Assembly: GCA_016871725.1 (NCBI GenBank) | Contig: VHCL01000013.1 | Coordinates: 1-40,534, forward strand | Origin: Verrucomicrobiota bacterium | GTDB lineage: Bacteria > Verrucomicrobiota > Verrucomicrobiia > Opitutales > UBA953 | Direction: 5' to 3' | DNA length: 40,534 nucleotides | Part shown: positions 6,001 through 29,550 of the stretch, piece after piece | Position numbering within the stretch: position 1 is the first letter of the stretch | How the letters are laid out: the number at the start of each line of letters is the position of its first letter | The notes under the pieces: model-generated | The model's input: only the letters and a program-made list of their open reading frames with translations | Database searches by the model: none | Told to the model about the DNA's origin: nothing | Position numbers and translations under genes: made by a program

Positions 6001-9000
6001 CATCACCCTGCAGGGCGACGGCGCCGGCAGCTCACTCACCTCCGCGACGGGCGACCTGTACGTCTTCACCAACCAAGGCACGATGAACATCAACGCCCGC
6101 CTCACCGGCTCGATGAACTTCATCAAGTCGGGCGGCGGCACCCTCCGCCTGTCGACCCCGACCGCCCCGGTCTCGAACGACTTCGTCGGCACGACCTTCG
6201 TCAACCACGGCACGCTGAACCTCGGCGCCGCCGCCGGTTACGTCCTCGTCCCCGGCGACCTCGTGGTCACCGGCATGGCCTCGGCCACCAACACCTCGGT
6301 CGTCATGCAGACGAACGAAGGCCAGATCGCCGCGACGGCCAACGTCAGCCTCCTGGGCGGCGGCAACCTCACCCTGGTCGGCACGAACACGCTGCGCGCC
6401 GTGACCTTCGACAACGAAGGCGCGATGTCCAACCCGACGCTCGCCGTCGGCGCCTCCCTGATCCTGTCCGAGCCGAACGCCGTCACCGCCTCCAACCAGT
6501 CCACGGTCTCCGTGCCGGTCATCAGCGGCACCTCCCTGCAGTTCAGCAGCGCCAATCCGGTCCTCACCGTCAACGCCGGCCTGGCCGCGACGGGCCTGAC
6601 CATCAGCGCCCCGATCACGCAGAACGCGGCGATGCTCTCGCTCACCAAGTCCGGCGCCGGCCTCCTCGCCCTCAGCGGCCAGAGCACCTTCGCCTCCGAC
6701 TTCACCTTGGCGGCCGGCGCCCTCATGCTCGGCGCCAATTCCACGCCGGTCAGCGGCGCCGTCACCAGCGGCCCCGTCGGCCGCGGCGTCCTCCAGATCG
6801 GCGCGGGCACCTCGCTCCTCAGCGACGGCACCGTCCGCACCATCGCCAACCTCGTGAACGTCAACGGCGACTTCGCCTTCGGCGGACGCGGCGCCGGCGC
6901 CGGCGTCACGCTGGCCGGCAAGGTCAGCCTCGGCGCCGCCGCGCGCACGATCTCGGTCACCAACTACGGCGTCACGGCCACCCTCAACGGCGGCCTATCC
7001 ACGGACCTCACCGACCGGAGCATCGCCCTGACGAAGACCGGCAACGGCGTGCTCGTCCTGGGGTCCCCCTCGACCGGGGCCGACCTCAAGGGCGCTTCCG
7101 TCCGGGTCTCCGGCGGCGTGATCCGCTGGGCCGGCAACGACAGCCTCCCGGCCGACACCTTCCTCGTCGCCGGCACGGCCTCGGGCTTCGACCTCGCGGG
7201 CTTCAGCCAGACCACCCACCAGATCTCCGGCACGGGCTTCTTCACCAACTCCTCGCTGACCACCCCGAGCACGCTCACGGTCGGCGGCGATGACAGCTCG
7301 TTCACGTTCTCCGGCGCGCTCACCGACAACGCCGGCGGCGGCGGCGCGGCCCTCGGCCTCACCAAGGTCGGCACGGGCGTGCTGAGCTTCGGCGCGGTCA
7401 ACAACTACACCGGCCTGACCGACATCCAGGCCGGCCGCCTCGACATCACGAACATCGGCTCGTTCGGCCTCGGCATGGTCAACATCGCCGCGGGCGCGGA
7501 ACTGCGCATGGACCGCACCGGCACGCTCAACTTCCCGAACGAGCTGTCCGGCGCCGGCGACGTCCGCTCGGTCGGCGCGGGCACGACGATCCTCACCGCG
7601 GCGAACTCCGGCTTCAACGGACGTTTCCTCGTGGACAACGGCGTCCTCCAGGTGGGCAACGGCACGCAGCTCGGCGATACCGGCGACCTGGGCTCGGCCC
7701 AGCAGGTCATCGTGACGCTGCCCGGTCAGCTGCGCTTCAACTACTCCGTCGACTACAGCCTCTTCCGCGTCATCCGCGGCAACGGTACCGTCGTCCAGGA
7801 AAGCACCAAGGTGCTCAGCATGGGTGGCACCTACGGTGGCAATCCGTTCGCAGGCCGCGTCCAGGTCAACAACGGCACGATCGAGGTCAACGCGCAGGGC
7901 ATCCTGGCGGCCTCGACCGGCATCATCGTCAACCGCGGCAACTACTTCGACCTGGTCGCGAACCAGGTGCAGCCCGGCTCCTTCTTCAAGGTCACCGGCA
8001 ACGATGCGGTCGGCACGCCCTCCTACGGCGTCCCGATGACCTTGAACGGCGGAACCGCCGACGTCCGTACGTTCAGCGCCTACCTCGGGCTCGTGACGCT
8101 CAACGGCGGCGACCTCACCAGCGACACCGTCACCCAGCTGGATCCGCTCCTCACGCCGACCCCGTCTCCGTCGTGGGTGCTGCTGGGCAACGTCGTGGCG
8201 ACCGACGACTCCACCATCTCGGCCGAGTTCGTCGACTTCGGCGGCGCCAGCGCTTCCCGCGACTTCAACGTGTCGGCCGGCAAGAAGCTGACCATCAGCG
8301 GTTCGTTCGGCGACCGCGGCGCGGCCGTGGCCAGCTACTCGAAGTCCGGCGCCGGCACGCTCGAGCTCACCGGCTCGGCGAAGACCAACTCCGGCACGGT
8401 CACCCTCAACGGCGGCTTCCTCAAGTTCGCCGACGCCGCCCAGCTCGGCCTGTCCTCCGCGGCGGTCCACGGCAACCTGGTGTTCGCCGGCGGCTCGGTC
8501 GAGTACACCGGCGCCGGCTCGTTCGGCCGTAACTTCCTCGTGAAGGACGGCGGCGCGGGCTTCCACGCCACCAGCGGCGCCAATCCGCTGCTCATCAACG
8601 GCCTCGACCAGATCGACTTCGACGACGCGGCTCCGCTCAGCGCCCGTGCGCTGACCCTCTCGGGCACCAGCACGCTGGCCAACACCTACAACGGCGACCT
8701 GCTCGACAACGCCGACGCGGCGCGCGCCTTCTCGGCGGTCGTCAAGAACGGCGTGGGTCAGTGGATCGTCGACGGCGCGGGCGCCACGCTCGCTCCGGAC
8801 GCGGAAGTGAACGTCAACGGCGGCGTCCTCGGCTTCTACATGAACGCCCTGGGCACCACCGCCAGCACCGGCGGCATCAACCTGGCGAACAACGCGACGC
8901 TGCGCTGGGAAGCCACGAACAACCAGGACCTCGGCGCCCGCCTGCGGGTGGTCGACGGCGCCACGGCCACCATCCAGGTCGAGAACAACACGACCTTCAA

Positions 9001-9856
9001 CGGCGGCCTCGACTTCGCGGCCGGCGCCAACACCGGCACGGGCGCCCTCGTCAAGACCGGCGCGGGCAACCTCGTCCTCGCGGGCGCGGCCGGCACGTTC
9101 TCCGGCGGTCTCACGGTCGCCCAAGGCACCGTGACGGTCAACCAGACCGGCGCCCTCGGCACCGGCACGGCGACGATCGGCTCCGGCGCGACCATGGTCG
9201 TGAACAACGCGGTCACCAACAACATCGTGGTGTCCGCCGCGGGCGCGGCTCCGGCCGGCGGCCAGCTGGTCGCTGCGGCCTCCGTGGGCAACGTGACCGT
9301 CGGTTCCGGCGCCACCATCGGCCGCGGCCAGACCCTCGGCGCCTTCACGGCGACGGGCATGACCCTCGCGGGCGGTTCGCGTCTCGAGTTCAAGATCTGG
9401 GACATCAACACCCAGTCGGCGGGCGTCGGCTACGACCAGTACGCCTTCGGCAACCTCGACCTCAGCGGCGCCTCGGTGTCCAACAAAGTCGTGATCAAGC
9501 TGATCTCGATGTCCACCGCGTCGACCCTCGGCGCGGCCGGCAACCTGTCGCTCCTGCAGGGCGCCGCGGGCATCCAGACCTTCAGCTTCGGTTCGTTCAA
9601 CACGGCCGGCCTGAACCTCGGCGCCAACAACAGCGCCAACATCAGCGACCTGTTCACGTTCGACACCAGCCAGTTCACCTACACGGGTGGCACGGCCTCG
9701 GCGGCGAGCCTCTGGGCGATCGACTTCAACACCAACAGCGGCGCCATCACGCTGACCGCGGTGCCGGAGCCTTCGACCTACGGTCTGGGCCTCGGCGCCC
9801 TGGCCCTCGCGGCCGCGGCGATCCGCCGCCGCAAGCGGCAGGAGAAGAGGGCCTGA
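2..9856 (+). CDS. giant autotransporter-type beta-strand-repeat protein with PEP-CTERM tail (5' end outside window)
   Basis: The frame is open from base 2 to the TGA at 9854-9856 (3284 residues visible), so the start lies upstream; an internal GTG at 398 is not a credible start because the same repeat-type sequence continues before it. The protein is a long series of Gly/Asn/Thr/Ser-rich beta-strand repeats of the passenger-associated (autotransporter-associated beta strand) kind, with recurring phrases such as KTGAGNLVLAG, GGTLELRDGG and NNYTGLT. I saw no cysteine in the visible sequence. The C-terminus is a canonical PEP-CTERM signal: VPEPSTYGLG, a hydrophobic Leu/Ala helix, then IRRRKRQEKRA. 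By family knowledge such proteins are exported, processed by exosortase and kept at the cell surface or in extracellular polymer. A segment with a GAWAV...FASYSD...LGAAGF pattern (bases ~2540-2660) recurs in diverged form at ~5690-5790, pointing to internal duplication. Substrate or partner is unknown. Confidence 0.93.
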   Translation, partial: GGLLTISGDAALGHAANSVTLAANGATAATGLNVTGTFATARQFNLNAAANSLGVQLGRTLTVSNPFVFSAAGNSLVKQGAGVLVLPSANAGWTGGLTINGGVVRLGDALAAGTGPISIAPTSAARGTALQLVGGFELTNAITLQGTAAQLQGGVDFGGQLQSVSGVNTVSGLITLPYGGVIGADAGSTLRIYGGIQNTVGNNTLMLAANGDIVLGNTEMSFGGATRFNSVEKLGAGTLRIESSNVTEVIDQNTNGLLIRQGTVLVDANGSWRSRVFLDVGSTLRLDNTAVNFATGRMSTTAGSVFKNITFRGGWLDILGGTMSANATVEGFQDTTFGKGLSTISLKQQSLALQPTNLVFRGAAWGNNAPTQGTSAPGVSMVFRGVGQTPGSGRASVQFTAAPTLSGETGAAGVRNRGILPWAIVDINYSGAFGTNVSFATLGSVNNNIRWLDAAEYEIDPTVFGGVAQGVVTNSNLLLTAASAANTAVAVNTQRNSLTIEGGAGLALADGVQFSLRSGGILVRPGSVSTISGGVINQVAASTAGLNVWTLGDLTISSALAGGNGVGNGSPSLIKAGEGTLTIAPPLSAVNGLGALGTNTMSGLFMLNQGTVRLGSLNAILANNYFSAIGGTLDLNGKSQLFFGTFTESTITNQGTNITSSNGLGHLLINADNSGRQFAARVTGNVSFTRSGLNTLNLWGVNSHTGVTTITGGNTVMYGDAAFTATSALDISYGNLYLDNDNSLRASADRINDAAVVNLRQGYLELRGRDQTAVSEAVGTVNLLEGNSFLYNLANGNGGTVTLTLGNLVRNVRGGTVNFSSGGSPNRIMLTQLNGSPATAASVLVNGMLGAWAVSGLNANGNSHFASYSDTLGVGSLGAAGFPAYANVTSDANTLVAPAATANINLNTAGANVPVANDLTINSLRFGDQTTMQVNIAAGKTLTVASGGILFAGTGTNSHYLQGGTVTTTAPELVFHSVGGGWQVVRSVLAGTGVTLVKSGNGPVFVENVINTYDGGTVVNQGWLGINANSNIPLAADVTKGLVINGAQVETYGAGVIAAGNEVTLSGPAQLRYFGDNTVAKLTIDNVGSNGTGLVRTFAANQQNGAGSRGVLTIGAGGLWATSANVTTLPFIEGRVDFGATANFVNVAPISVGGFADVDPLRPTLALQAIVGSAGGITKNGNGVLDFRAQSFFGSDFTVAAGGIRTGVTNAGSRLSTLVLNAGTRFDLNNLNTTWGGLSGSGDVFSALGTPTLSVGFNNADTTFSGRFMRFNDAAFPQINKIGTGTLTLTGAQPSTGSYGSISVSGGTLAYAGANGSAFVTTSAANSVFNVNAGGTLLLDNAGGNRNNRLGAALGGTVNLQGGVLSVLGSAAASTTENLAFLSVLNGGGRLELRPDAAQSLALAAGVLSAASPTGSLVVAGVSRFPGAGLANVSVTTPNFSGTQGGGTNGTATMSVRGDILVAETATGAGAGFLTVDSSTGLVRALDAVNETFLLENTMGAGFNARLAGARTLTAPTTVNTLTSSGTASVASGLAADVFGKYGPSGDLLSLSLANAAGMLVLDGTTTFDMGTLVGPAAGAAYFHVLPGATLNVNASLIPAATGGFVLDNGGTMVLGAITGAFTGTVAINNGTLRLASGLDNTLAISASAGAIGLPFVALNGPNAVLDIGARNQAVRGLSSSNPLPGMGGTVTGLAGSVFSTQDNSTFGGRLTGGLSFVRGGNTTTTLTSASDYTGTTVVRGGTLELRDGGAIASTAGLRLAQGTLTWNNFGLNAVASPVRLAPSNAVTLAGGTFTVIGGGSADNVVNLDSMTAQLGANLLNSNPYISMGATNQITIGDFVLGGGGARPTVNFNGWTTLNSGGTNTLGSPGLTASSTLKLTKLNGVTFNAASMTLTNGIIGGWAIADGATFATYSDVFGISQMGAVYNGYTAPGFTGGDISVATVATGNYSEGAAARTITGARAANSWRFQVGTGVTNQDITLTNAPVTLGVGIVTNNGNTITLQGDGAGSSLTSATGDLYVFTNQGTMNINARLTGSMNFIKSGGGTLRLSTPTAPVSNDFVGTTFVNHGTLNLGAAAGYVLVPGDLVVTGMASATNTSVVMQTNEGQIAATANVSLLGGGNLTLVGTNTLRAVTFDNEGAMSNPTLAVGASLILSEPNAVTASNQSTVSVPVISGTSLQFSSANPVLTVNAGLAATGLTISAPITQNAAMLSLTKSGAGLLALSGQSTFASDFTLAAGALMLGANSTPVSGAVTSGPVGRGVLQIGAGTSLLSDGTVRTIANLVNVNGDFAFGGRGAGAGVTLAGKVSLGAAARTISVTNYGVTATLNGGLSTDLTDRSIALTKTGNGVLVLGSPSTGADLKGASVRVSGGVIRWAGNDSLPADTFLVAGTASGFDLAGFSQTTHQISGTGFFTNSSLTTPSTLTVGGDDSSFTFSGALTDNAGGGGAALGLTKVGTGVLSFGAVNNYTGLTDIQAGRLDITNIGSFGLGMVNIAAGAELRMDRTGTLNFPNELSGAGDVRSVGAGTTILTAANSGFNGRFLVDNGVLQVGNGTQLGDTGDLGSAQQVIVTLPGQLRFNYSVDYSLFRVIRGNGTVVQESTKVLSMGGTYGGNPFAGRVQVNNGTIEVNAQGILAASTGIIVNRGNYFDLVANQVQPGSFFKVTGNDAVGTPSYGVPMTLNGGTADVRTFSAYLGLVTLNGGDLTSDTVTQLDPLLTPTPSPSWVLLGNVVATDDSTISAEFVDFGGASASRDFNVSAGKKLTISGSFGDRGAAVASYSKSGAGTLELTGSAKTNSGTVTLNGGFLKFADAAQLGLSSAAVHGNLVFAGGSVEYTGAGSFGRNFLVKDGGAGFHATSGANPLLINGLDQIDFDDAAPLSARALTLSGTSTLANTYNGDLLDNADAARAFSAVVKNGVGQWIVDGAGATLAPDAEVNVNGGVLGFYMNALGTTASTGGINLANNATLRWEATNNQDLGARLRVVDGATATIQVENNTTFNGGLDFAAGANTGTGALVKTGAGNLVLAGAAGTFSGGLTVAQGTVTVNQTGALGTGTATIGSGATMVVNNAVTNNIVVSAAGAAPAGGQLVAAASVGNVTVGSGATIGRGQTLGAFTATGMTLAGGSRLEFKIWDINTQSAGVGYDQYAFGNLDLSGASVSNKVVIKLISMSTASTLGAAGNLSLLQGAAGIQTFSFGSFNTAGLNLGANNSANISDLFTFDTSQFTYTGGTASAASLWAIDFNTNSGAITLTAVPEPSTYGLGLGALALAAAAIRRRKRQEKRA

Positions 9857-13157: not shown

Positions 13158-13564
13158 AGTAGGGGTTGGCGGTAAGCGGTTGGCGGTTGGGAATACAAAC
13201 GCGTAAAGGGGAATCGGAGACCGGATGATTTGCTGGGGTCCCCTTTTTCAGGTCTCGGCCGTCGGGTGTCTGGTGCAGGTTCAGAGCCGCGATTAATCGA
13301 TACAGCCCTCTGTCATCCGTCATCGACTCAGTGCTCAATTCAGCATCGCTATGTCGTGACGCGGTCCCGACCCTACCCAGCGCGGCGGAGCCGCGAGGTG
13401 GAAGCGGTTAGCGGTTGGCGGCTGGGAACACAGCCAAGGCAGCTAGGGCAGCACGCGGTGCCGCCCCTGTCCCAAGACCAGCACTCCCCCTATACTCCAT
13501 ACTCGATACTCCATACTCTCGGTATCCGGCCCTCGAGTCCTCGTGTCCTCCTGTCCTCGTTTAC
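13158..13564. repeat. intergenic mosaic repeat region R2 (inverted order C-E-F-D-C-B-A)
   Basis: Lies between converging genes and holds no gene. Module map: C 13159-13198; E 13203-13285; F 13295-13345; D (TCGTGACGCGGTCCCGAC) 13350-13372, followed by a GCGCGGCGGAGCCGCG palindrome; C 13401-13442; B 13446-13466 (imperfect hairpin, one A.C mismatch); A 13488-13520 as TACTCCATACTCGATACTCC. This is close to the reverse complement of the order seen in regions R4-R7, showing that the composite can sit in either orientation. Confidence 0.85.
13446..13466. repeat. B-type hairpin, imperfect copy
   Basis: Arms GGGCAGCAC and GTGCCGCCC around loop GCG. One position is mispaired relative to the perfect copies at 18792, 20219, 21312 and 23486. 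Confidence 0.7.
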
Positions 13565-16189
13565 CTACTTCACCTTCGCCCTCCGCCACACCTGCTTGTC
13601 GGGGGTGACGAGGATGACTTCGAGGTTCTCGCGTTCGGCGAGAAGCTTGGCGGCTTCGAACCCGACGGCCATTAGCGCGGTCGACCAGGCGTCGGCCTGC
13701 ACGCAGTCCGGATGGAAGACCGCCGCGAGTTCGAGCGTGGTCGCGATCGGTTCCCCGGTCTTCGGCGAGAGGATGTGCGAGGCGGGCTTTCCGGCGGCCG
13801 CCTTGCGCGCGCGGTACAGGCCGGAGACGCCCAGGGCGCGGTCGGTGAGCACGACGGTCTCCATGGTCATCCGTGGCTGGAAGGGGTCCTCCAGTCCGAC
13901 GCGCCAGGTGCCGGCCGCGAGGATCTCGCCGCCGACCTCGATGAGGAATTCCTCGAGGCCTTCGCGTCGGAGGATCCGCGCGGCGCGGTCCGCCGCGTAG
14001 CCTTGCAGCAACGACCCCAGGTCGAGGCTCAGCTTTTCGTGCTGCTTGGCGAGCGTCAGGTTGGCCTTGTCCAAGGTCAGTTTCCGCCAGCCCACCTGCG
14101 GAAGCGTCGCCAGGATCTGCGCCGGCGTGGGCGTCGGGCGCTGGCCGTCGGGTCCGTAGCCCCAGAGCGACGTGAGCGGAGCCACCGTCAGGTCGAAGCC
14201 CCCGTCGGTGGCGCGGCTGAGCGCGAGCCCGAGTTCCGTCAGCTCGGCGAGTTCGGGCGTGATGCCGAAGGGCTGCGTCGATTCGAGCTGATTGAAATCC
14301 GCCGTCGCCGAGGAGGCGCGCCAATGCGAGAGCGAGAACTCCACGCGGTTCATCTCGGCCTCGAGCTCGCGCTTGAGCAGCTCGGCGTCGACTTGGTCGC
14401 CGCGCACCTTGACCGTCCACGTCGTCCCGAAGGCAGCGCCGTGGAGTTCGGTGACCGGCCGGCGGGCGGAGGCTTCGGCCGGCGCGGCGGCCGCGGCGTC
14501 GGCGCCGGGGAAGTAGGCGATGGCGGCGCCGACGGCGAGGACCGCGGCGGCGACCGTATCCCGCCGCGCCCAGGACTCCTCGGCGCTGCTCGTGCGCACG
14601 AACTTCAGGAGCGCGCCGGTCGGGCAGCCGTACTTGCAGTAGGCCTGGGGGACGAAGACCGAGGCCACCAGGCCGGCGATGGCCAGTGCGAGGGGCACGG
14701 CCACGGCGGTGCCCAGAATCCAGGCGTCGAAAGGCTCGGCTTCGCCCAAGGACCAGCGGGGCCAGGCCAAGGCGGCCAGGAAGGCCCCGCCAAGGGCCAT
14801 GGCGGGCAGTTTGCCCAGCCAGCCATGCCAACGGGCGGGGACGGCCACATGAAGGCGCCGGAAGCCTCCTAGGAGCTCTTGGGCGGCCCCGTGGGGGCAG
14901 ATCTGGTGGCAGTACGTCTGCCGCCGGGCGGCCCAAGGGATGAGCAGGGCCACGGCCGCCAGAGCCAGGAGGGCGGGGGCGGTACCCCAGGGCACCCCGT
15001 GGCGGGCCCAACCGGCGAACAGGGAAAGGGAAAGCAGCTGCCCGAGCCAGAGGCCGAGGCCGCCGACCAGCAGCAGCTGCCAGAGCCGCCGGACCCACGG
15101 GCGCGCGTGCAGCGCCGTGAAGGTCATCAGCAGCGCGCCCAGGATGAAGGCTCCGAGGGCGACTGATTTCCAGAAACGCATGGCCGCCTCGCGTTCGCGC
15201 CGGCCGCCGTGCCGGTCGTCGGCGAAGCGCGTCTGCAGGCCCTTCGCGATGGCGTAGCTCGTGAGCGTCGCGCCGGCGACCGTGTCGAGCTCGGCCTTGC
15301 GGAAGTCGAATTCGGCCCACTCCCGTGTGTTCCATTGGGTGAGCTTCGAGAGGTAGGTGCGGCCCTGCGGGTCCGGCTCCTCGTCTTGGATCCGGCTGAC
15401 ATAGTCGGCGGTGTCGTAGGTCGAGCGCAGGACGACCTTGCGGAGGCGCAGGGCGTCGGTCTCGAGCGCGATGAGCGTCTCGCTCGGGCCGGCGTAGCCG
15501 GGGACCTCGTCGGCCGACGGCGAGGAGCGCACCACGTAGCCGAGGTGCGCCCGGTTGGCGCCGCGCACGAGGTTCCAGCCGAGGCGCGGGACGTTGGGTT
15601 CGAAGCCCGTCGCGTCCGGGAAGCCCGCCGCCTGGACTTCCATGAGGGTGAGCGGCAAGGGGAAGCGCAGGGAGACGTAGTTACCGGACAACCGCTGCTG
15701 GATCGACTCGGCGATCGCGTAGGCCGTGAGCGTCGAGCCGGCGTAGCCGTCGAGCTTCGGGGCGGGCTGCGCGGACGGCCGCCAGGACTTGAAGGAATCG
15801 TCGAACGCGTTCGAGCGGCGCAGCTGCTCGACGTGTTCCGGCGTGTCCTGGCTGGAGAGGACGCGGGTCCCGACGATCTGGTCGCGGAGGTCGAGCGCCA
15901 CGAGGACGTTGCTCGGCCCCGCGTAGCCGAGGATCGCGTCGGCGTCGGGCGAAGTGGTCAGGAGCCGCCCGAGGCGGTTGCCGGCCTGGTCCTCGACCAG
16001 GAGGGTCTGGCTCGGGCCCGACTTCAGGCGGCGCGCCTCCGGGAAGAAGGCCTTGGCGTCGGCCAGCCCGAGCCGCGCCAGCGCCGAATCCGTGACCGGG
16101 TTCGTGCGCTGCAGCAGCAGGGCGGCGAACAGCAACGCCCCGAGACGCCAGCCTCTGACCAGCCAGGCGCTGACGCGGGGCGTAAGCAT
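13565..16189 (-). CDS. fusion of two FMN-binding domains, NosR/NapH-like membrane domain and ApbE flavin transferase
   Basis: An 874-residue protein. Residues 11-27 form a membrane anchor. Two FMN_bind domains follow (~80-170 and ~215-322) with acceptor-type motifs DGYAGSTLTAYA (147-158) and DTVAGATLTSYA (302-313); Thr153 and Thr308 are the likely FMN-carrying residues. About six membrane helices lie between 341 and 560, with CHQICPHG (427-434) and CKYGCPTG (518-525), the paired CxxxCP motifs of NosR/NapH-type polyferredoxins. From ~580 to the end is ApbE (FAD:protein FMN transferase): GAAFGTTW, TDGGFDLTVAPL, LDLGSLLQGYAAD, EVGGEILAAG, SHILSPKTGEP, ADAWSTALMAVG. The usual KGY lysine is Gln here. 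Helix counting places both Cys motifs in the cytoplasm and the FMN and ApbE domains outside. The inferred role is self-flavinylating transmembrane electron transfer. It starts 3 nt after the FAD oxidoreductase gene. Confidence 0.88.
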   Translation of the reverse strand: MLTPRVSAWLVRGWRLGALLFAALLLQRTNPVTDSALARLGLADAKAFFPEARRLKSGPSQTLLVEDQAGNRLGRLLTTSPDADAILGYAGPSNVLVALDLRDQIVGTRVLSSQDTPEHVEQLRRSNAFDDSFKSWRPSAQPAPKLDGYAGSTLTAYAIAESIQQRLSGNYVSLRFPLPLTLMEVQAAGFPDATGFEPNVPRLGWNLVRGANRAHLGYVVRSSPSADEVPGYAGPSETLIALETDALRLRKVVLRSTYDTADYVSRIQDEEPDPQGRTYLSKLTQWNTREWAEFDFRKAELDTVAGATLTSYAIAKGLQTRFADDRHGGRREREAAMRFWKSVALGAFILGALLMTFTALHARPWVRRLWQLLLVGGLGLWLGQLLSLSLFAGWARHGVPWGTAPALLALAAVALLIPWAARRQTYCHQICPHGAAQELLGGFRRLHVAVPARWHGWLGKLPAMALGGAFLAALAWPRWSLGEAEPFDAWILGTAVAVPLALAIAGLVASVFVPQAYCKYGCPTGALLKFVRTSSAEESWARRDTVAAAVLAVGAAIAYFPGADAAAAAPAEASARRPVTELHGAAFGTTWTVKVRGDQVDAELLKRELEAEMNRVEFSLSHWRASSATADFNQLESTQPFGITPELAELTELGLALSRATDGGFDLTVAPLTSLWGYGPDGQRPTPTPAQILATLPQVGWRKLTLDKANLTLAKQHEKLSLDLGSLLQGYAADRAARILRREGLEEFLIEVGGEILAAGTWRVGLEDPFQPRMTMETVVLTDRALGVSGLYRARKAAAGKPASHILSPKTGEPIATTLELAAVFHPDCVQADAWSTALMAVGFEAAKLLAERENLEVILVTPDKQVWRRAKVK

Positions 16190-16192
16190 CGC

Positions 16193-18559
16193 TTACTCGG
16201 CGGGGACGAGCTGGAAGGCGTCGGCGTGCACGTTGCCCTTGGCGCCTTCGGTGGAGAGGACGAGGGTATGGGTGCCGGCCGCGAAGGTGAACTTGCCGAG
16301 GACGGCGGGCTTTTCGATCTCGCCGACCTTCTGGTTGAGGCGGAGCGCGACGGGCTTCTCGCCGTCGCGGTTGATCGTCAGGAGGGAGTTGCCCGAGCGG
16401 TTCTCGTGGCCTTCCCAGTAGCCGCGGATCTCATACTTGCCGGCGGTCTTCACTTCGAAGGCGTAGGTCGCGCGGTTGCCGGCGCCGGCGGCGTAGTGGT
16501 AGCCCGCGCCGAGGTGGCCGATGCCGTGGCCGGAGGTCCACTTGCCTTCCAGCTTCGCCTGGGCGTCGTCGACGACGATGCCGCCGAGCTTGGCCAGCTC
16601 CTGGAGTTCGTCGGCGCTGAGCTTGGTCGGCGCGCTCTTGTGCAGGTCGGCGTTCATCCGGCCCACGGGGAGTTCCTTGAAGTCGGCGATCGACGTGTCG
16701 AGGAAGAGGTCGGAGCGCAGGTCGCTGCGGCGCATGCGGCCGGGCTGTTCCATGAGCTTGATCAGCTCGGGCAGGTGCTTCTGGTAGACGCCGCGCGGGT
16801 CGGTGTTCTCGCGGACGGCGAGGTAGGCGGCCTTGCCGACGACTTCGCCCATCATCCCGATGGTGCGCATCACGCGCACGGTGCCGAGGGCCTCGTGCGT
16901 GACGGAGATGTGGCGGCCGGCGAAGAAGAGGTTGCTGATGTTCTTGGAGTAGAACAGGCGGTAGGGCAGGGGGTAGCCGTTGCGACGGTCGACGGCGGCG
17001 ATGTGCTTGCCGCTGGCGTCCACGTAGCCGAAGGCCGCGCGGGAGATGAACGGATTGTCCGGGAACTTCTTGGCGAACTGCTCCTTGGCGTAGTGGAGGT
17101 CGATGTCCCAGGTCGTGGGCACGCAGCCGTCCGGGAAGTCGGTGCGCTGGACGATGTTGTCCTTGTTCAGGATGATGTCGCCGTCGAAGAGGCGCGATTC
17201 GCGCGGGCCGCCGACGTGCGAGGCCCACTTGAGCTCGGAGAGGGCATACTTGTCCTTCTGCGGGCCGTTCTTGAGGGCGGAAAAGGCGCCGTACATGGCG
17301 CGGAAATTCCAGTCGCGGATATACTCGAGGTCCTTGATCGGATCCTGGTCGAAGCCGGATTCCCAGAACCACTCGGCCTTCATGAAGGGCTTGTCGTCGA
17401 GCTTGGACTTGGACTTCTGGAGGAGCGGGAAGTCGCCCATCTCGAGGGGCAGGGCCCACGGGGTGGCCGGCCAGGTCGAGGCCTGCGCTTCGTCCTGGTA
17501 GAACCACATGTTCGACATGCCCATGCGCTTGTTCGGCTCGACGCGGAAGGTCGCGCCGGCGTAGGCGCCCACCCAGCCGTGGCCGGTGGTGTCGGCCACG
17601 AACTTCGCGCGGAAGACCTTCTCGCGGCCGGTCTTGACGTCGATGGCCTTGACGGCGGCGATGCGGTCGCCGGCCATCACGACGCCGGTGGCGAAGTGGC
17701 CGAGGAAGAGGCTGATGTTCTTCTCCTTGCGGACGACCTGTTCCTTGAGCTCGTCGCCGAAGCTGTCGACGCGACCGGGGCTGTCGGGCGAGCGGTCGCC
17801 GATCTCCTCGATGATCTCGCCGAGGTGCGGATACTTGCCGCGGGTGGTGCCGCCCATCGCCCAGACGCCGATCTCGGAGCTGCCGTTGCCGCCGAGGACG
17901 AAACGGTCCTGGAGGAACGCGACCTTGAGGGACTGACGCGAAGCGGAGAGCGCGGCGCCGAGGCCGCCGTAGCCGCCGCCGACGACGACGAGGTCGAACT
18001 CACCCTGGTCTTCGGCGCCCTTGGGGCTGTTCCACCGCGAGCGGGCCGTGACGAGCGCGGCGCCTTCGGGCGGAACGAACGAGGCGTCCTTGCTGAAGAC
18101 GATGGCGTCGGCGCGACCGGCGAAACCGGTGAGATCATGCAGGGCGATCTTCACGTCGCCGGCGGGCAGGGTGACCTTGCCGCCTTCTTGCCAGTGCCAC
18201 TCGGCGCCTTTGGTGCCGAACTCGGCGGCGACCGGCTGGCCGTTGACGATCAGCTGGAAGCGGCCAGGGGTACCGGGGGCCTTCCAGTGGGCGACCCAAT
18301 CCTTGGTGCGCACCCAGACGCGGTATTCGCCCGCGGCGGGAATCCGCACGATGCCGGTGGCGTCGGCGACGGGCTTGCCGAGGCCGTGGGCCAGGAGGTA
18401 GGGCGAGCCGACGATGTTGGTGAAAGCCGTGTCGAGCTTCCAGCCGCCATGGGAGGCCAGGGATTCGGCTTCGACGAAGACGGTGTCGGCGGATTGCGCG
18501 CGGCCGGTGGCGGCGGCGAGCAGGGACAATCCAAGGAGGGAAAGGACGCGGGGGGACAT
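16193..18559 (-). CDS. exported FAD-dependent oxidoreductase with carbohydrate-binding-like flanking domains
   Basis: 788 residues from the ATG at 18559, chosen because it begins a Sec signal peptide (MSPRVLSLLGLSLLAAATGRAQS). The frame stays open for 145 codons further upstream, but that part is only intergenic repeat. Residues ~24-158 form a beta-rich, ligand-binding-like domain (FVEAESLASHGGW ... GEYRVWVRTKDW). The FAD domain starts at FDLVVVGGGYGGLGAALSAS (188-207, GGGYGG dinucleotide fold) and continues with FVLGGNGSSEIG, VADTTGHGWVGAYAGA (321-336) and NLFFAGRHISVTHEALGTVR (543-562), typical of the FAD_oxidored family found near polysaccharide-use genes. A second golvesin/CBM-like domain (~685-787, GKYEIRGYWEGHENRSGNS) closes it. 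The substrate is unknown. The next gene begins 3 nt after its TAA and encodes a membrane FMN/Fe-S/ApbE protein, a plausible electron partner. Confidence 0.87.
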   Translation of the reverse strand: MSPRVLSLLGLSLLAAATGRAQSADTVFVEAESLASHGGWKLDTAFTNIVGSPYLLAHGLGKPVADATGIVRIPAAGEYRVWVRTKDWVAHWKAPGTPGRFQLIVNGQPVAAEFGTKGAEWHWQEGGKVTLPAGDVKIALHDLTGFAGRADAIVFSKDASFVPPEGAALVTARSRWNSPKGAEDQGEFDLVVVGGGYGGLGAALSASRQSLKVAFLQDRFVLGGNGSSEIGVWAMGGTTRGKYPHLGEIIEEIGDRSPDSPGRVDSFGDELKEQVVRKEKNISLFLGHFATGVVMAGDRIAAVKAIDVKTGREKVFRAKFVADTTGHGWVGAYAGATFRVEPNKRMGMSNMWFYQDEAQASTWPATPWALPLEMGDFPLLQKSKSKLDDKPFMKAEWFWESGFDQDPIKDLEYIRDWNFRAMYGAFSALKNGPQKDKYALSELKWASHVGGPRESRLFDGDIILNKDNIVQRTDFPDGCVPTTWDIDLHYAKEQFAKKFPDNPFISRAAFGYVDASGKHIAAVDRRNGYPLPYRLFYSKNISNLFFAGRHISVTHEALGTVRVMRTIGMMGEVVGKAAYLAVRENTDPRGVYQKHLPELIKLMEQPGRMRRSDLRSDLFLDTSIADFKELPVGRMNADLHKSAPTKLSADELQELAKLGGIVVDDAQAKLEGKWTSGHGIGHLGAGYHYAAGAGNRATYAFEVKTAGKYEIRGYWEGHENRSGNSLLTINRDGEKPVALRLNQKVGEIEKPAVLGKFTFAAGTHTLVLSTEGAKGNVHADAFQLVPAE

Positions 18560-18791
18560 GGGGCTATTAGATGCCAAGGGGATGGGAGAGTTCCAGAGGA
18601 AAAGGGGTGGAAGAATGGGGGAGGGGCAGGGGTGGGGGTAGGTGATGCTGAGAGTGTCGAGTATGGAGTATCGAGTATCGGGGGAGTGCTTGGGGTAGGG
18701 ACGGCACTGGTGCTGCCCTAGCTGCCTGGGCTGTGTTCCCAACCGCCAACCGCTAACCGCTTCCACCTCGCGGCTCCGCCGCGCTGGGTAG

Positions 18792-18812
18792 GGGCAGCAC
18801 CGCGTGCTGCCC
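18792..18812. repeat. B-type hairpin, perfect copy
   Basis: Arms GGGCAGCAC and GTGCTGCCC, loop CGC, set in the flanking frame GTAG...; identical in arms and loop to the copies at 20219, 21312 and 23486. Confidence 0.85.
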
Positions 18813-19216: not shown

Positions 19217-19316
19217 CTGCCTTGAACCGCAGTTCAGCGAGGGCGCTCAAACCTACCTAATGTCTGAGTCTGCCCTCGATTCGGTGCTCAACTCGGTCTT
19301 CTATTCGGTCATCCCC

Positions 19317-20159
19317 ATGATCCTCCGTCTGATTGCTTTGCTTTGCGTCGCTGCTTCCTTCGCCGCTGAAATCCCCGCCGTTGGTCTCCTGGTCGATCTC
19401 GACGCCACCAAGGGCATCACGCTCGACGCGCAGGGACGCGTGACCGCGTGGACGAACCAGGCCGGCCCGGCGGAGCTCCGGTCGTTCGTCGGGCAGCCGA
19501 AGGGACGCACGGAGCCGAACTCGGGTCTGCCGTCGGTCGTGAAGGCGCCCCGCATGGCGCTCTCGTTCCGTCAGCAGGAATTGGTCTGCCATGATGAGTC
19601 GGCGCTCGACGGAATCATCCGCGGCGCGGGCTGCACGTGGGTCGCCGTGATCAAGGTCTACCCGCAGCGCGTCGGCCTGAAGGACGTGAATTCCTTCTTC
19701 GGCAACCTGCGCAACGGCCAGAAATACGAAGGCCTCTGGGGCTGTCTGGACGACGATAACACCGTCTGGTGGGGCGCCCGCAACGGGCTCACCTTCGGCC
19801 GCTTCGACGTCAATAATCCCAAGCTCGTCGGCCCGAAGCTAGAGGAAGGGCGTTTCCATTTCCTCGCCGGCCGCATGGGCGCCGGCCAGCCGCAGCGGAA
19901 TTCCTTCGTCGACGACCTCGGCGTGGGCCGGACCGAAGCGCTGCTGGAATTCTTCGTCAACGACCTGAAGCCGTGCGCGACGGCGCAGTTCCCGGTCAAT
20001 CCCAAGGCCGACGCCTCCAAACTCGCCATCGGTCAGGAACGCGATGCGATCCAGCATCCCGGGAAGGAATCCTTCGACGGCGAGATCGCCCGCTTCCTGC
20101 TCTGGGATCGTCCGCTCACCGACGCGGAGTTGAAGAGGGTATTTGAGAAGGTGAAGTGA
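19317..20159 (+). CDS. small exported LamG/concanavalin-like domain protein
   Basis: 280 residues from ATG 19317, chosen because it opens a Sec signal (MILRLIALLCVAASFAAEIP). An in-frame ATG at 19260 would only add 19 residues encoded by intergenic repeat F. The body (GLLVDLDATKGITLDAQGRV, WTNQAG, MALSFRQQELVCHDESALDG, WVAVIKVYP) and the end (EIARFLLWDRPLTDAELKRV) match the layout of LamG/concanavalin A-like jelly-roll domains that occur in many verrucomicrobial secreted proteins; the closing phrase 'DGEIARFLLWDRPLTDAEL' is the strongest sign. No catalytic residues can be assigned, so a carbohydrate-binding or structural role is only inferred. It stands alone, flanked on both sides by mosaic repeats and divergent from the FAD oxidoreductase gene. 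Confidence 0.8.
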   Translation: MILRLIALLCVAASFAAEIPAVGLLVDLDATKGITLDAQGRVTAWTNQAGPAELRSFVGQPKGRTEPNSGLPSVVKAPRMALSFRQQELVCHDESALDGIIRGAGCTWVAVIKVYPQRVGLKDVNSFFGNLRNGQKYEGLWGCLDDDNTVWWGARNGLTFGRFDVNNPKLVGPKLEEGRFHFLAGRMGAGQPQRNSFVDDLGVGRTEALLEFFVNDLKPCATAQFPVNPKADASKLAIGQERDAIQHPGKESFDGEIARFLLWDRPLTDAELKRVFEKVK

Positions 20160-20607
20160 GCGCTGAGAGTATCGAGTATGGAGTATCGAGCATAGGGGGA
20201 GTGCCTGTCTTGAGGTAGGGGCAGCACCGCGTGCTGCCCTAGTTGCCTTGGCTGTGTTCCCAACCGCCAACCGCTAACCGCTTCCATCTCGCGGCTCCGC
20301 CGCGCTGGGTAGGGTCGGGACCGCGTCACGACATAGCGGTGCTGAATGGATGACTGAATCGATGACAGATGACGGATGGCAGAATCGATCAGGGAGGACT
20401 GCGTTGAGGGCTGAATAGAGGACTGAATGGATGATGCCTGCCACCCGCCACCCGGGGCCGCCACCTGCCACCTGAAACGGATGCTATCTAATCCTCCGGT
20501 TTCCGGTCTCCCTTTGAGCGTATACCTCTCTGGCCAGCCGGCCAACTGATCAACGGATCAACTTATCCAGCCCAAGCCCTGTGCCTCGCGGCCGCTACGC
20601 CGCCGCG
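20160..20607. repeat. intergenic mosaic repeat region R4 (A-B-C-D-F-G-E-H, most complete)
   Basis: No gene. This is the best example of the full module order: A 20164-20203; B hairpin 20219-20239; C (inverted, CAACCGCCAACCGC) 20250-20283; D (GTCGGGACCGCGTCACGAC) 20288-20345; F 20341-20436, with a clear 12-bp period; G (CCACCTGCCACCTG type) 20437-20478; E (inverted, shortened) 20490-20520; H (GGCCAACTGATCAACGGATC and AGCCC tail) 20532-20580; then a GC-rich, imperfectly palindromic stretch running into the stop codon of the gene at 20608. Confidence 0.88.
20219..20239. repeat. B-type hairpin, perfect copy
   Basis: Arms GGGCAGCAC and GTGCTGCCC, loop CGC, flanked by GTAG and TAG. Confidence 0.88.
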
Positions 20608-21150
20608 TCACTTCTTCCCCTTCTGGAACTGCTGGCCGCGCTGCTTCATGCGCTCTTCGAGGGCGTCGAGCACTTTGTCGACGACATCGCCGGTCAGTTC
20701 GTCATCGGCGGCGAGCATGGCCTCTTTGGTCGCCTTGCGGAGGTCGAGCGCGGCCTCTTCGAACTGCGGACGGAGATTCTTCTTCTCGTCGTCGGACGCG
20801 TATTCGGCCTCTTTGCGGAGTTCGTTCTGCCTTGCGCGGGCGGCTTTGACGCCTTCGTCCTGGAAAGACTTGAACATCGCCGTCCGGCACTTGTTGAGCT
20901 GCTCGGGCGTCACGCCCTCGATCTCCTCGGGCAGGAAACCACCGGTCTTGCCGCCGAACTTCGGGGCGGCTTGCTTACGGGGCGCGTCGGGCACGTCGCC
21001 TTCCGGAGCCTTGGGCCTGGCGGCGAAGGCGGGGCCGGCGGCCTTGGGCTGCTCAGCGGTGGCTTGGGCGGGCTGGCGGGCTTCCATCGCGAAATAGGTG
21101 GCGGCGGAACCGACGGCGGCGGCGAGGAGGAGGGGGAAGAGTTGTTTCAT
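20608..21150 (-). CDS. small exported helical protein, 90-residue-domain family member 1
   Basis: 180 residues, no recognised function. An N-terminal signal or anchor (MKQLFPLLLAAAVGSAATYF) is followed by a Pro/Ala/Lys-rich linker and one charged, helical domain at ~79-167 (GVTPEQLNKCRTAMFKSF, NELRKEAEYASDDEKKNLR, DLRKATKEAMLAADDEL, VLDALEERM). This domain aligns without gaps over ~70 residues with the second domain of the protein encoded at 21640-22560: KEAEY/F.S..EKKN.R, DLRKAT and DA.E.R are shared. The VTPEQL opening recalls the LTxxQ motif of Spy/CpxP-type periplasmic proteins, but that similarity is weak and only suggestive. It is the last of four minus-strand genes of this kind, each separated from the next by mosaic repeats, so they are probably not one simple operon. 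Confidence 0.8.
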   Translation of the reverse strand: MKQLFPLLLAAAVGSAATYFAMEARQPAQATAEQPKAAGPAFAARPKAPEGDVPDAPRKQAAPKFGGKTGGFLPEEIEGVTPEQLNKCRTAMFKSFQDEGVKAARARQNELRKEAEYASDDEKKNLRPQFEEAALDLRKATKEAMLAADDELTGDVVDKVLDALEERMKQRGQQFQKGKK

Positions 21151-21311
21151 GGGATAGGGGTTCGGGGTAGGCTATTGAAGGAACCCCGGGAGGAGGGGAA
21201 AGTTGTGGGGTAGAATGGAGGACTGAATCGATGACGGAGGGCGGATGGCGCTATATTGAGAGTATCGAGTATGGAGTATCGAGTATAGGGGGAGTGCCTG
21301 TCTTGGGGTAG

Positions 21312-21332
21312 GGGCAGCACCGCGTGCTGCCC
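21312..21332. repeat. B-type hairpin, perfect copy
   Basis: Arms GGGCAGCAC and GTGCTGCCC, loop CGC, flanked by GTAG and TAG. Confidence 0.88.
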
Positions 21333-21616
21333 TAGTTTGCCGTGGGTAGGGTCGGGACCGCGTCACGACACAGCGGTGCTGAATGGAGGGCTGCGTTGAG
21401 GACTGAATGGAGTACTGAATGGATAAAGCCCGCCACCTGCCACCTGGGGCTGCCACCTGCCACCCGAAAGGGGAAGATGGCCGAGACCATAAAATGGGCA
21501 CCCCGCCAATCATCCGCTTTCCGGTCTCCCTCCGAGCGAATGACTCCCGGGCCAGCCGGCCAATTGATCAACAGGTCAACTAAATCAGCCCCAGCCCTAG
21601 CCCCAGCCCTGTCCCT

Positions 21617-21637
21617 CGCGGCAGCTTCGCTGCCGCG
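21617..21637 (-). terminator. stop-adjacent hairpin, possible terminator without T-run
   Basis: A perfect 9-bp stem (CGCGGCAGC, loop TTC, GCTGCCGCG) begins 2 nt after the stop codon of the minus-strand gene 21640-22560. No T-run follows it on that strand, so termination or 3'-end protection is inferred from position only. Confidence 0.5.
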
Positions 21638-21639
21638 CC

Positions 21640-22560
21640 TCACTTCTTCTCCCCGAACGGGAAAGGCTTGAGCGGGGTCTTGGCGGCCTTCTTCTTGCCG
21701 GACTTCTCGAGGGCTTCGCGGGCGCGGGTCTCGATCGCGTCGTAGATCTTCTCGAGGGTCTCCTTGGAGAGGTCGGGCGCGGCCTGGGCGATGGCGGCGA
21801 GGGTGGCTTTGCGGAGGTCCGCCTGGACCTGCTCGAAGTCGCCGCGCATGTTCTTCTTCTCCTCCTGGGACAGGAATTCGGCTTCCTTGCTGAGCTGGGT
21901 GCGCTTGGCCTTGATCTCCTTCACCTTCGGGTCGCGCTGGGCCTTGAAGGCGGCCGCGCGGAACTTGCGCATGTCTTCGGCGGAGACCCCTTCGACGTCG
22001 GCGAGCAGGTCGGCCGGGCTGACGGGCTTGGCGGGTTCTTCCTTGGCGGCCGTCTCGGCGGCCGGCTTGCCTTCCTCCTTGGGTTGCTTCGCGGCGGCGG
22101 CGCGCTCCTCGGCGGAGGCCTTCTCCTGGGCGGCGCGGGCGGCTTCTTGGCTGCGCTTCTTCACCATTTCTTCGACCGCGTTAAGCGTCAGGACCAGGGC
22201 TTCCTTCTCGACGGTCGGGTCGGCTTTCTGCACCGCGGCGATGGTGGCCTTCACCATGGCGTCGCGGGCGGTTTCGAAATCGAGGCGAAGGTCCTCGGTT
22301 TCGTTACGCCCTTTCACGAAGCGGGTCCGCTCCTTGACGTCGGCGAGGCGCTTGCGCGCCGCGGTGATGGCTTCGTCCCCGTAGGTCGCCATCAGGGCCC
22401 GGCGGATCTTGGCGAGCTGTTCCTCCGTCACGCCGGCGACGCTTTCGGGGAGAGCGGTGCCGGCTCGGGGGGCTTTCTTGGCCGGCTTGGCCGCGGGTTC
22501 GTCGGCGGCAGGGAGCGGGAGCGCGAGCAGGGCGAGGGCGAGAAGGGGGAGGAGGCGCAT
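21640..22560 (-). CDS. exported helical protein with two copies of the 90-residue domain
   Basis: 306 residues from ATG 22560, chosen for the signal peptide MRLLPLLALALLALPLPAAD; the open frame upstream is repeat F/G read in frame. It holds two related helical domains, ~43-136 (AGVTEEQLAKIRRALMATYG ... KATIAAVQKADPTVEKEAL) and ~190-283 (EGVSAEDMRKFRAAAFKAQ ... EAEFLSQEEKKNMRGDF ... DLRKATLAAIAQAAPDL), joined by an Ala/Glu/Lys-rich, coiled-coil-like linker (137-185). The second domain is clearly homologous to the protein at 20608-21150. Function is not recognised; an extracytoplasmic, highly charged helical protein is all that can be said. The leader just upstream of its ATG resembles that of the gene starting at 23384. 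Confidence 0.8.
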   Translation of the reverse strand: MRLLPLLALALLALPLPAADEPAAKPAKKAPRAGTALPESVAGVTEEQLAKIRRALMATYGDEAITAARKRLADVKERTRFVKGRNETEDLRLDFETARDAMVKATIAAVQKADPTVEKEALVLTLNAVEEMVKKRSQEAARAAQEKASAEERAAAAKQPKEEGKPAAETAAKEEPAKPVSPADLLADVEGVSAEDMRKFRAAAFKAQRDPKVKEIKAKRTQLSKEAEFLSQEEKKNMRGDFEQVQADLRKATLAAIAQAAPDLSKETLEKIYDAIETRAREALEKSGKKKAAKTPLKPFPFGEKK

Positions 22561-22604
22561 GGTAATGATACACCGAAAAGCGAGAAAGGTTTGAGCGGAT
22601 AACA
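22561..22604 (-). promoter_or_regulatory. leader element shared with the gene starting at 23384
   Basis: Reading toward the minus-strand ATG at 22560, TATCCGCTCAAACCTTTCTC is followed by CGGTGTATCAT and then ATG. The same two blocks, with few changes and nearly the same spacing, precede the ATG at 23384. A shared promoter or mRNA leader is likely, but its nature is unknown. Confidence 0.5.
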
Positions 22605-22925
22605 GAATGGAGGACTGCGTGGAGGACTGAGTAGAGGGCTGAATGGAGGACTGAATAGATGAAGCCTGCCGCCCGGGCAGATGGCTGAGTCGATGACGGA
22701 TGACTGAATCGATGACAGATGGCGGATTTCCCGCCACCCGCCACCCGGGGCTGCCATCCGCCACCCGAAAGGGTAAGATGGCTGAGGCCTTTGACCTGAA
22801 AACGGCTCCCCCGCCAATCATCCGGTTTCCGGTCTCCCTTTGAGCCAATGCCTCCCTGGCCAACCGGCCAACGGATCAACTTATCCAGCCCTAGCCCTGG
22901 CCCTCACCGCCGCTTCGCGGCGGTG
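22605..22925. repeat. intergenic mosaic repeat region R6 (F-G-E-H, lacking A-B-C-D)
   Basis: No gene. Map: F 22605-22728 (12-bp period GGAGGACTGAAT, interrupted by GCCCGGGC near 22671); G 22731-22770; E (inverted) 22785-22845; H 22850-22900; terminal hairpin 22905-22925. Modules A to D are absent, so this copy is a one-sided truncation of the composite seen in R4 and R7. Confidence 0.86.
22905..22925 (-). terminator. stop-adjacent hairpin, possible terminator without T-run
   Basis: A perfect 9-bp stem (CACCGCCGC, loop TTC, GCGGCGGTG) directly abuts the stop codon of the minus-strand gene at 22926. It has the same TTC-loop design and position as the hairpin at 21617-21637, but different arm sequence. 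Confidence 0.5.
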
Positions 22926-23384
22926 TCACTTCTTCTTCGGCTTGCCGGCGACGTCGGGCTTCTTCTGGTGCGTCGATTCGACGTAGTCGCGGATGAGCTG
23001 GACGTTCAAGGAGGGGTCGGCTTTCTGCATCGCCTTGACGCGGGCGGCGTCGAGCGCCTCGCGGGCTTCTTTGGCGTCGCGGGCGCCGCCTTCCTTCTTC
23101 TCGCCCTTGCTCTTCTTGGGCTTTTCGCCGCCGCCGAGCTTGGCCAGGGCGGCCTTGAAGTCTTCGTCGGTCTCGGCCTTAAGCCAGGCTTCCTGAAGTT
23201 TCACGCCGTCGGCGAGCCCGACTCCGGCCGGGATCTCCGGGGCGTCGAGGCCCTTCTTCTTCTTTTTGACCGCGGGCTCCGTCTTCTCGGCCGGCTTGGC
23301 CACGGGTTCGACGGGCTTCTTCTCGTCGGCGGCGAAGAGCGGGAGAGAGGTGAGGAGGGCGAGGAGCAGGGCAGGGGGGCGCAT
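22926..23384 (-). CDS. small exported Lys-rich protein
   Basis: 152 residues from ATG 23384, which starts a signal peptide (MRPPALLLALLTSLPLFAAD). The mature part is Lys/Ala/Glu-rich, with a KKKKKG cluster near 40 and a second basic stretch (GGGEKPKKSKGEKKEGG, 84-100). Its C-terminal helix AREALDAARVKAMQKADPSL (107-126) resembles the A..KADP.L helix of the neighbouring 21640-22560 and 24033-24473 proteins, so it may be a diverged or shortened relative. It ends in a basic tail (KPKKK). No function is recognised. The frame stays open ~174 codons upstream, but that part translates mosaic repeat. The leader matches that of the 22560 gene. Confidence 0.72.
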   Translation of the reverse strand: MRPPALLLALLTSLPLFAADEKKPVEPVAKPAEKTEPAVKKKKKGLDAPEIPAGVGLADGVKLQEAWLKAETDEDFKAALAKLGGGEKPKKSKGEKKEGGARDAKEAREALDAARVKAMQKADPSLNVQLIRDYVESTHQKKPDVAGKPKKK

Positions 23385-23427
23385 GCGGATGGAACACCGG
23401 GGGAGGAAAAAGGTTTTAGCGGATAGG
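23385..23427 (-). promoter_or_regulatory. leader element shared with the gene starting at 22560
   Basis: Toward the minus-strand ATG at 23384 the blocks TATCCGCTAAAACCTTTTTC and CGGTGTTCCAT appear, matching the leader at 22561-22604. Their conservation amid unrelated coding starts suggests a shared control element or a recent duplication of gene plus leader. Confidence 0.5.
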
Positions 23428-23980
23428 GATGATGAGAGTATTGAGTATGGAGTATCGAGTATCGGGGGTGCATGCCTTGAGGTAGGGGCAGCACCGCGTG
23501 CTGCCCTAGTTGCCTCGGGTCGGGTCGGGACCGCGTCACGACGTAACGGCGCAGAATTGACGGCTGAATCGATGGCAGATGACGGATGACAGAGGGCCGA
23601 ACCAATCACTGAGGACTGAATGGAGGACTGAATGGAGGACTGCGTTGAGGGCTGAATGGAGGGCTCAATTGACTTTGCACCACCCGCCACCTGCCACCTG
23701 GGGCTGCCACCCGCCACCTGAAGTGGAGATGACAGAGTCGATGGCTGAATCGACGACGGATGACAGAGGACGGATTTACCAAACCTGCACCCGAACCTAA
23801 ATGCCCGGACCAGGCTCCTGACGGCCGAGACCCGAGACCCGAAAATAGATCCCCCAGCAATCTTCCGGTCTCCGGTTTCCCTTCGCGTGGCTGCCTCCCT
23901 TGCCAACCGGCCAACTGATCAACGGATCAACTCATCTGTCCTCTGCCATCGATTCAGCCATCGATTCTTCCACCTGCCCC
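23428..23980. repeat. intergenic mosaic repeat region R7 (A-B-D-F-G-F-E-H-F)
   Basis: No gene. Map: A 23432-23470; B hairpin 23486-23506; D 23518-23545; F 23553-23672, including the clearest 12-bp tandem (23611-23665, unit GAGGACTGAATG); G 23680-23722; F 23726-23775; E with its full tail (inverted) 23777-23882; H 23896-23932; F in opposite orientation 23934-23970. It stops just before the terminator of the gene at 24033. Confidence 0.87.
23486..23506. repeat. B-type hairpin, perfect copy
   Basis: Arms GGGCAGCAC and GTGCTGCCC, loop CGC, flanked by GTAG and TAG. Confidence 0.88.
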
Positions 23981-24010
23981 AAACAAAAGACCCCGGTCGC
24001 CCGGGGTCTT
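23981..24010 (-). terminator. rho-independent terminator of the gene at 24033-24473
   Basis: On the minus strand a 10-bp stem (AAGACCCCGG, loop GCGA, CCGGGGTCTT) is followed by a T-rich run (TTTTGTTT, first two T in the stem). It lies 22 nt past the stop codon. Unlike the stop-adjacent hairpins nearby, it has a T-run and is a convincing intrinsic terminator. Confidence 0.9.
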
Positions 24011-24032
24011 GTTCCAGCCAATGATCCGAGGA

Positions 24033-24473: not shown

Positions 24474-24514
24474 GGTATGTATGGGGATGGGCGGATGGAA
24501 CCCCGCCCCCGTGG

Positions 24515-24550
24515 CCGAGTTGCAGGATTCTGAATTTAATTATGACACGC
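24515..24550. promoter_or_regulatory. AT-rich divergent promoter candidate
   Basis: The 124-bp gap between divergent genes starting at 24473 (-) and 24598 (+) contains one AT-rich island (TTCTGAATTTAATTATGAC) in otherwise GC-rich DNA. On the plus strand TTGCAG and TATGAC are 15 nt apart, a sub-optimal sigma70-like pair; on the minus strand CATAAT could act as a -10. Assigned from composition and position only. Confidence 0.3.
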
Positions 24551-24597
24551 CGGCGGGGTGCGGTCCGGGCGCCTCCGGGCTTAAGGTCAGGGCCGCC

Positions 24598-25861: not shown

Positions 25862-25879
25862 TTCGGCTCGGGAGCCGGT

Positions 25880-29330: not shown

Positions 29331-29356
29331 ATGGAGGACTGAGTAGAGGACTGAAT

Positions 29357-29522: not shown

Positions 29523-29550
29523 ACTTGGTCCTCTTCTTTTCTTCGTATCG

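Follow-up and report, generated by a model that had tools for sequence, protein, structure and literature searches.

Background

Flavinylated NapH-like systems, some of which feed electrons to reductases, have been described by Meheust et al. in 2021 (PMC8238504). According to the main text of that paper, the partners of these systems include nitrous oxide and organohalide reduction systems, the nitrite reductase NirS and the alcohol oxidase ExaA, and for most NapH-like systems the reaction is stated to be unknown; the same main text, taken apart from its supplementary tables, mentions neither PF12831 nor Verrucomicrobia nor Planctomycetes. In PceC, FMN is attached at Thr168, in a site of the GST type (PMC5928378). 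Those supplementary tables excepted, we found no literature that links PF12831 to flavinylation or gives the subfamily studied here a redox partner.

The DNA analysed in this paper is a stretch of 40,534 nucleotides (the window; contig VHCL01000013.1, assembly GCA_016871725.1) from a Verrucomicrobiota bacterium of the order Opitutales. It contains an operon in which the gene of an FAD-dependent oxidoreductase of the family PF12831, predicted to be exported, is followed by the gene of a membrane protein, here called the conduit, that combines two FMN_bind domains, a transmembrane domain with CxxxCP motifs and an ApbE domain. We consider it rather probable that the two proteins form a periplasmic redox module centred on an exported FAD dehydrogenase. 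In this paper, we describe the anatomy of both proteins, their co-inheritance in public genomes, and the likely course of the electrons.

Organization of the operon and its surroundings

Both genes lie on the minus strand, and the enzyme gene (16193..18559, 788 aa, ATG at 18559) is followed by the conduit gene (13565..16189, 874 aa) after a gap of 3 nt, the junction being GAG-TAA-gcg-ATG. The open reading frames, with their coordinates, order, spacing and motifs as given in the original prediction, were all confirmed in the window. A scan of the 2.37 Mb host genome found no FMN_bind domains other than the two of the conduit; it also revealed seven strong PF12831 matches, i.e. six besides the operon enzyme, and three matches to the COX1 family of heme-copper oxidases, which support an aerobic capacity.

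The flanks of the operon in the window encode phosphoesterases, enzymes of haem biosynthesis, DUF1501/PSCyt proteins and proteins without a match. A sugar operon in the host genome was considered and found to be unsupported, as the flanking genes are of other kinds or have no Pfam match. The region 19284-26527 encodes small proteins, mostly without a Pfam match, which loci of the same genus (L041-L044) also keep beside the operon; coproporphyrinogen III oxidase, uroporphyrinogen decarboxylase and ferrochelatase, all of haem biosynthesis, are encoded at 27415-30582; and two DUF1501 genes, each adjoining a gene of the DUF1553/planctomycete-cytochrome type, are found at 30825-35853 and 37310-40479, such neighbours being typical of the superphylum. 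At the other end of the window, an open frame of ~3,284 aa (2-9856), which runs past the window start, contains autotransporter-type PATR repeats and a PEP-CTERM motif. In addition, a 96-nt intergenic repeat occurs as two inverted copies, 95% identical, that bracket the operon (13359-13454 and 18710-18805), with a third copy near 20264-20304; a 24-nt piece of this repeat was found in none of the related loci fetched.

The predicted exported FAD-dependent enzyme

The enzyme matches the FAD_oxidored profile PF12831 with 185.1 bits against a gathering score of 27, over positions 1-412 of the 416 in the profile. Its catalytic core (16772..17995, minus strand) carries the dinucleotide-binding motif GGGYGG, and the positions WxWE, RD, RE, DLH and PYR are invariant. 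Residues ~1-23 (MSPRVLSLLGLSLLAAATGRAQS; 18491..18559, minus strand; cleavage site placed by eye) resemble a signal peptide with a hydrophobic core, and a start of this kind is found in 39/39 class homologues and in 62/64 rows of a wider set, in good agreement with the signal peptide originally predicted and consistent with export of the enzyme.

An AlphaFold2 model with a pLDDT of 92 comprises an N-terminal beta-sandwich (residues ~25-160; 18080..18487, minus strand, delimited by AlphaFold2 secondary structure), the FAD core and a C-terminal beta-sandwich of the Golvesin_C type (66 bits; 16205..16576, minus strand). The last of these resembles the C-terminal domain of a Paenibacillus xanthan lyase (6f2p; 9e-17, rmsd 2.1 over 136 columns). 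Mean identity is 61% in the N-terminal flank, 60% in the FAD core and 41% in the C-terminal flank; the N-terminal sandwich is present in the aligned class homologues, and the C-terminal one is missing from many homologues. As the N-terminal flank is conserved as strongly as the FAD core, it is probably part of the catalytic unit, and the appearance of an optional accessory binding module, perhaps one for carbohydrate, is confined to the C-terminal flank. Therefore, of the two carbohydrate-binding-like flanks originally proposed, the C-terminal one is retained and the N-terminal one is not. No close solved relative of the enzyme subfamily was found in structure searches, and the best-ranked Foldseek match (a Cry protein, TM 0.13) was rejected as an artefact of the beta-sandwich.

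The predicted membrane conduit

The conduit contains two FMN_bind domains (15689..15928, 33.6 bits; 15233..15499, 24.9 bits; this and all following features on the minus strand), each with a predicted flavinylation motif, i.e. DGYAGSTLT (residues 147-155, 15725..15751), which is of the same type as the PceC site, and DTVAGATLT (residues 302-310, 15260..15286). The transmembrane domain that follows (residues ~330-563, 14501..15202, from hydropathy and AlphaFold2 helices) holds the CxxxCP motifs CHQICP (residues 427-432, 14894..14911) and CKYGCP (residues 518-523, 14621..14638), both cysteines of each being invariant in alignment A3, and Fer4_5 (PF12801) is matched in two stretches with 52 bits. 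Hydropathy gives 6 clear helices, i.e. at least 5 hydrophobic segments besides the N-terminal one, and AlphaFold2 suggests more; the AlphaFold2 model of the whole protein is moderate (pLDDT 76, pTM 0.48). The C-terminal ApbE FMN transferase domain (13613..14431, 230 bits) matches solved ApbE structures, with a TM-score of 0.85 to 6nxi and a Foldseek E of 6e-20 to Vibrio ApbE, and the FMN part shows a weak structural match to RnfG. From the motifs, covalent FMN on the conduit is predicted, and an arrangement with the FMN domains and ApbE outside and the CxxxCP motifs inside would be consistent with the hydropathy and, for the FMN domains, with the topology of PceC.

Both the flavinylation and the CxxxCP motifs are kept in most conduit rows. 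In several conduits of family f12 the flavinylation motif is missing or altered; L066, L071, L072, L075 and L078 of this family keep CxxxC, but no flavinylation motif can be recognised in their FMN_bind region.

The C-terminal ApbE domain would attach FMN to its own conduit protein. One could also imagine that the ApbE and FMN domains serve to assemble or modify the FAD enzyme with no catalytic exchange of electrons, as ApbE forms part of the conduit protein here and adjoins the conduit elsewhere. However, ApbE is missing from the locus or encoded separately in many species that retain the FMN_bind/CxxxCP part, and a role in maturation would not need FMN domains together with CxxxCP centres, so we regard such a role as most improbable.

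Co-inheritance of the two genes

Among 384 genomes drawn at the level of the class, 46 matched the membrane protein, of which 40 had the FMN/CxxxCP core; together with the genome of the window, 41 conduit genomes were counted, which belong to many families. An enzyme of at least 500 bits was present in 54/384 genomes, and every one of the conduit genomes had it (41/41; Fisher p=3.7e-44, a value that ignores shared ancestry). The two genes were directly adjacent in 18 of 40 class loci, within ~4 kb of each other in 4 and elsewhere in the genome in 18. Apart from ApbE, no other widely conserved gene family was found beside the pair in the class loci, nor in the named contigs.

In public genomes scanned with the enzyme alignment, to include other phyla, the two genes proved to be neighbours in Opitutales, other Verrucomicrobiota, Pirellulales, Rhodopirellula, Rubripirellula, Pirellula and Gimesia. 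In a draw of 216 Pirellulales genomes (the order labels of this draw and of the Cytophagales draw below were taken from the centre genomes, Rhodopirellula and Dyadobacter, respectively), 56 carried the conduit and 53 an enzyme of the close subgroup, and each of the latter also had the conduit (53/53; p=2.4e-47); 34 of these pairs were adjacent, 5 lay within 5 kb, and 14 were unlinked or on other contigs. The conserved linkage anticipated for a dedicated electron conduit of a periplasmic flavoenzyme was thus found, with the pair kept in two phyla and co-occurring even where unlinked. Chance neighbourhood of the two genes is ruled out by their co-occurrence in genomes where they are unlinked.

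It might be argued that the conduit is a general hub serving all exported flavoenzymes of the cell, its adjacency to this enzyme being merely historical. The host genome, with its six further strong PF12831 matches and its single FMN_bind protein, would agree with this, as would the many genomes that contain 10-20 PF12831 genes (up to ~20 copies per genome) and one conduit. However, the conduit tracks the enzyme subgroup of the operon almost exactly and does not track other PF12831 subgroups: the next enzyme subgroup in Pirellulales (435-800 bits) was accompanied by the conduit in only 1/19 cases. A dedicated partner is therefore favoured, and we consider a general hub quite improbable. In the enzyme tree, a clade of Verrucomicrobiota and Planctomycetota (90 rows, support 100) holds 64/65 of the conduit-labelled rows, some of the rows labelled as lacking a conduit being merely cut contigs or unlinked pairs.

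The pairing is not absolute, given the f12 conduits with a lost or altered motif and the genomes that have the enzyme and lack the conduit. In 13 of the 384 genomes of the class draw, an enzyme of at least 500 bits was present and no conduit reached the cut-off used, and a PF04205 scan found FMN_bind in only 3 of these 13; another electron acceptor must therefore be possible. No CxxCH, CxxxCP or flavinylation motif was found within 6 kb of the enzyme in 9/10 conduit-less Verrucomicrobiota loci scanned. Among Verrucomicrobiota genomes with a close enzyme homologue and no FMN_bind protein found (L111-L116), L111 and its relatives have the enzyme behind several consecutive esterase-like genes (AXE1, glucuronoyl esterase, GDSL), with no cytochrome or flavin carrier near it.

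A second carrier-like protein in Bacteroidota

The relatives of the enzyme in Bacteroidota are ~600 aa long and 38-47% identical, and have no conduit nearby; they sit in polysaccharide-utilisation loci with SusD, TonB plug, GH2 and sulfatase genes. At seven loci (six from Bacteroidota and one on a contig labelled Leptolinea), the enzyme relative is directly adjoined by the gene of a ~360-aa protein, predicted to be exported, that has no Pfam match and carries the motif DxxTGAT or a close variant. These proteins, encoded at L219:6846-7931, L208:6635-7795, L200:7003-8001, L206:6876-7949, L209:3980-5116, L215:9860-10921 and L223:2387-3412, also have an invariant pair of cysteines. In a draw of 213 Cytophagales genomes, the order of Dyadobacter, 23 contained the carrier-like gene, 21 contained the enzyme and 18 contained both (p=6.8e-19); in several genomes with the carrier only, it adjoins another PF12831 paralogue. 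An hhalign comparison of the carrier-like family with FMN_bind aligned the flavinylation motifs with a probability of only 3.7%, and no relative was found in the PDB.

Judging from its motif, the ~360-aa family is a candidate new flavinylated family, which would make it a further candidate substrate of ApbE beyond FMN_bind, DUF2271 and DUF3570. We hold with evenly balanced confidence that the widespread family of exported FAD enzymes would constitute a new class of periplasmic dehydrogenases with covalently flavinylated acceptors. These acceptors would have been recruited at least twice, as the transmembrane FMN_bind/NapH-like conduit of the Verrucomicrobiota and Planctomycetota and as a soluble carrier, dissimilar to the conduit, of the Bacteroidota.

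In Verrucomicrobiota and in Bacteroidota, Parabacteroides distasonis among them, a protein of ~800 aa without a convincing Pfam family was also noticed, whose gene lies close to that of the FAD enzyme or immediately upstream of it (L064:226-2643, L124:6073-8469, L132:5808-8246, L069:14001-16385, L224:1098-3566, L219:4350-6815 and L215:5383-7845), and is possibly a partner enzyme.

Proposed mechanism and direction of electron flow

In the module that we propose, the most likely role of the exported FAD enzyme is the oxidation of a small organic compound, our first guess being a sugar-type alcohol. The electrons would be passed from the enzyme to one or two of the FMN-bearing domains of the conduit, from there to iron-sulfur centres that its membrane domain holds by means of the CxxxCP motifs, and then through the quinone pool to the aerobic respiratory chain. 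As to the substrate, the suggestion of a sugar or polysaccharide derivative found no support at the conduit-linked loci, where a Pfam tally of neighbours found no shared carbohydrate genes, a polysaccharide-utilisation context being seen in Bacteroidota only. The proteins that the FAD core matches in fold (Z 16-17), i.e. dihydrolipoamide dehydrogenase, Thi4, thioredoxin reductase, urocanate reductase and others, make for a generic picture, and the substrate therefore cannot be named from the fold.

We favour the oxidative direction because the host genome also encodes heme-copper oxidases and because the Bacteroidota homologues are set in carbohydrate-utilisation loci. Its main rival is a reverse flow, in which quinol would supply electrons through the CxxxCP centres and the FMN domains, and the FAD enzyme would use them to reduce a periplasmic substrate, as happens in NosR, PceC/RdhC and flavinylated systems of the fumarate-reductase-like kind. 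This is the main rival because most characterised relatives of the conduit, NosR- and PceC-like ones among them, feed reductases (PMC8238504, main text; PMC5928378), and flavocytochrome c is found along with urocanate reductase among the fold matches of the core. However, the FAD core is not close to those reductases: its match to PF00890 (fumarate-reductase-like) reaches 18.5 bits, below the gathering score of 20.4, and the shared folds are generic. Together with the oxidases of the genome and the setting of the Bacteroidota relatives, this makes reverse flow unlikely in our estimation, and transfer from the enzyme to the quinone pool remains the reading that we prefer.

Comparison with known systems

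As described in the main text of PMC8238504, the NapH-like systems combine a PF12801 membrane protein and an N-terminal extracytosolic FMN_bind domain, clustered with an extracytosolic oxidoreductase and ApbE. The conduit is alike in having PF12801 with several helices, and FMN_bind and ApbE fused in the same protein; the operon differs in having a PF12831 FAD enzyme as the partner. The closest likeness is to PceC/RdhC (PMC5928378), which share with the conduit an FMN_bind domain, predicted to lie outside in the conduit too, several helices, two CX3CP motifs and an FMN site of the GST type, predicted in the conduit, whereas the conduit usually has a second FMN_bind domain and ApbE as a fusion; Pfam scans around the operon and across the window found no reductive dehalogenase. 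NosR resembles the conduit in its FMN_bind domain, its CxxxCP membrane domain and ApbE as maturation factor; the NosR equivalog of NCBIfam scores 33.2 bits on the conduit against a cut-off of 1000, no additional 4Fe-4S domain was found in the conduit, and there is no nosZ in the window.

On the side of the enzyme, FrdA of Listeria and UrdA are similar in that an exported FAD enzyme is joined to covalent FMN carriers, but the operon enzyme is a member of PF12831 rather than PF00890, and the FMN domains that go with it reside in another protein, located in the membrane. ExaA with its NapH-like conduit likewise represents a proposed periplasmic oxidation with electrons leaving via a flavinylated NapH-like protein; ExaA is a quinoprotein, whereas the operon enzyme is an FAD protein. 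With a partner conserved in two phyla, the electron acceptor of the FAD_oxidored enzyme, and an assay for it, become directly testable. Among the known flavinylated conduits of the NapH-like kind, the operon represents an additional type of partner, and its PF12831 enzyme extends the list of the enzyme kinds that such conduits serve.
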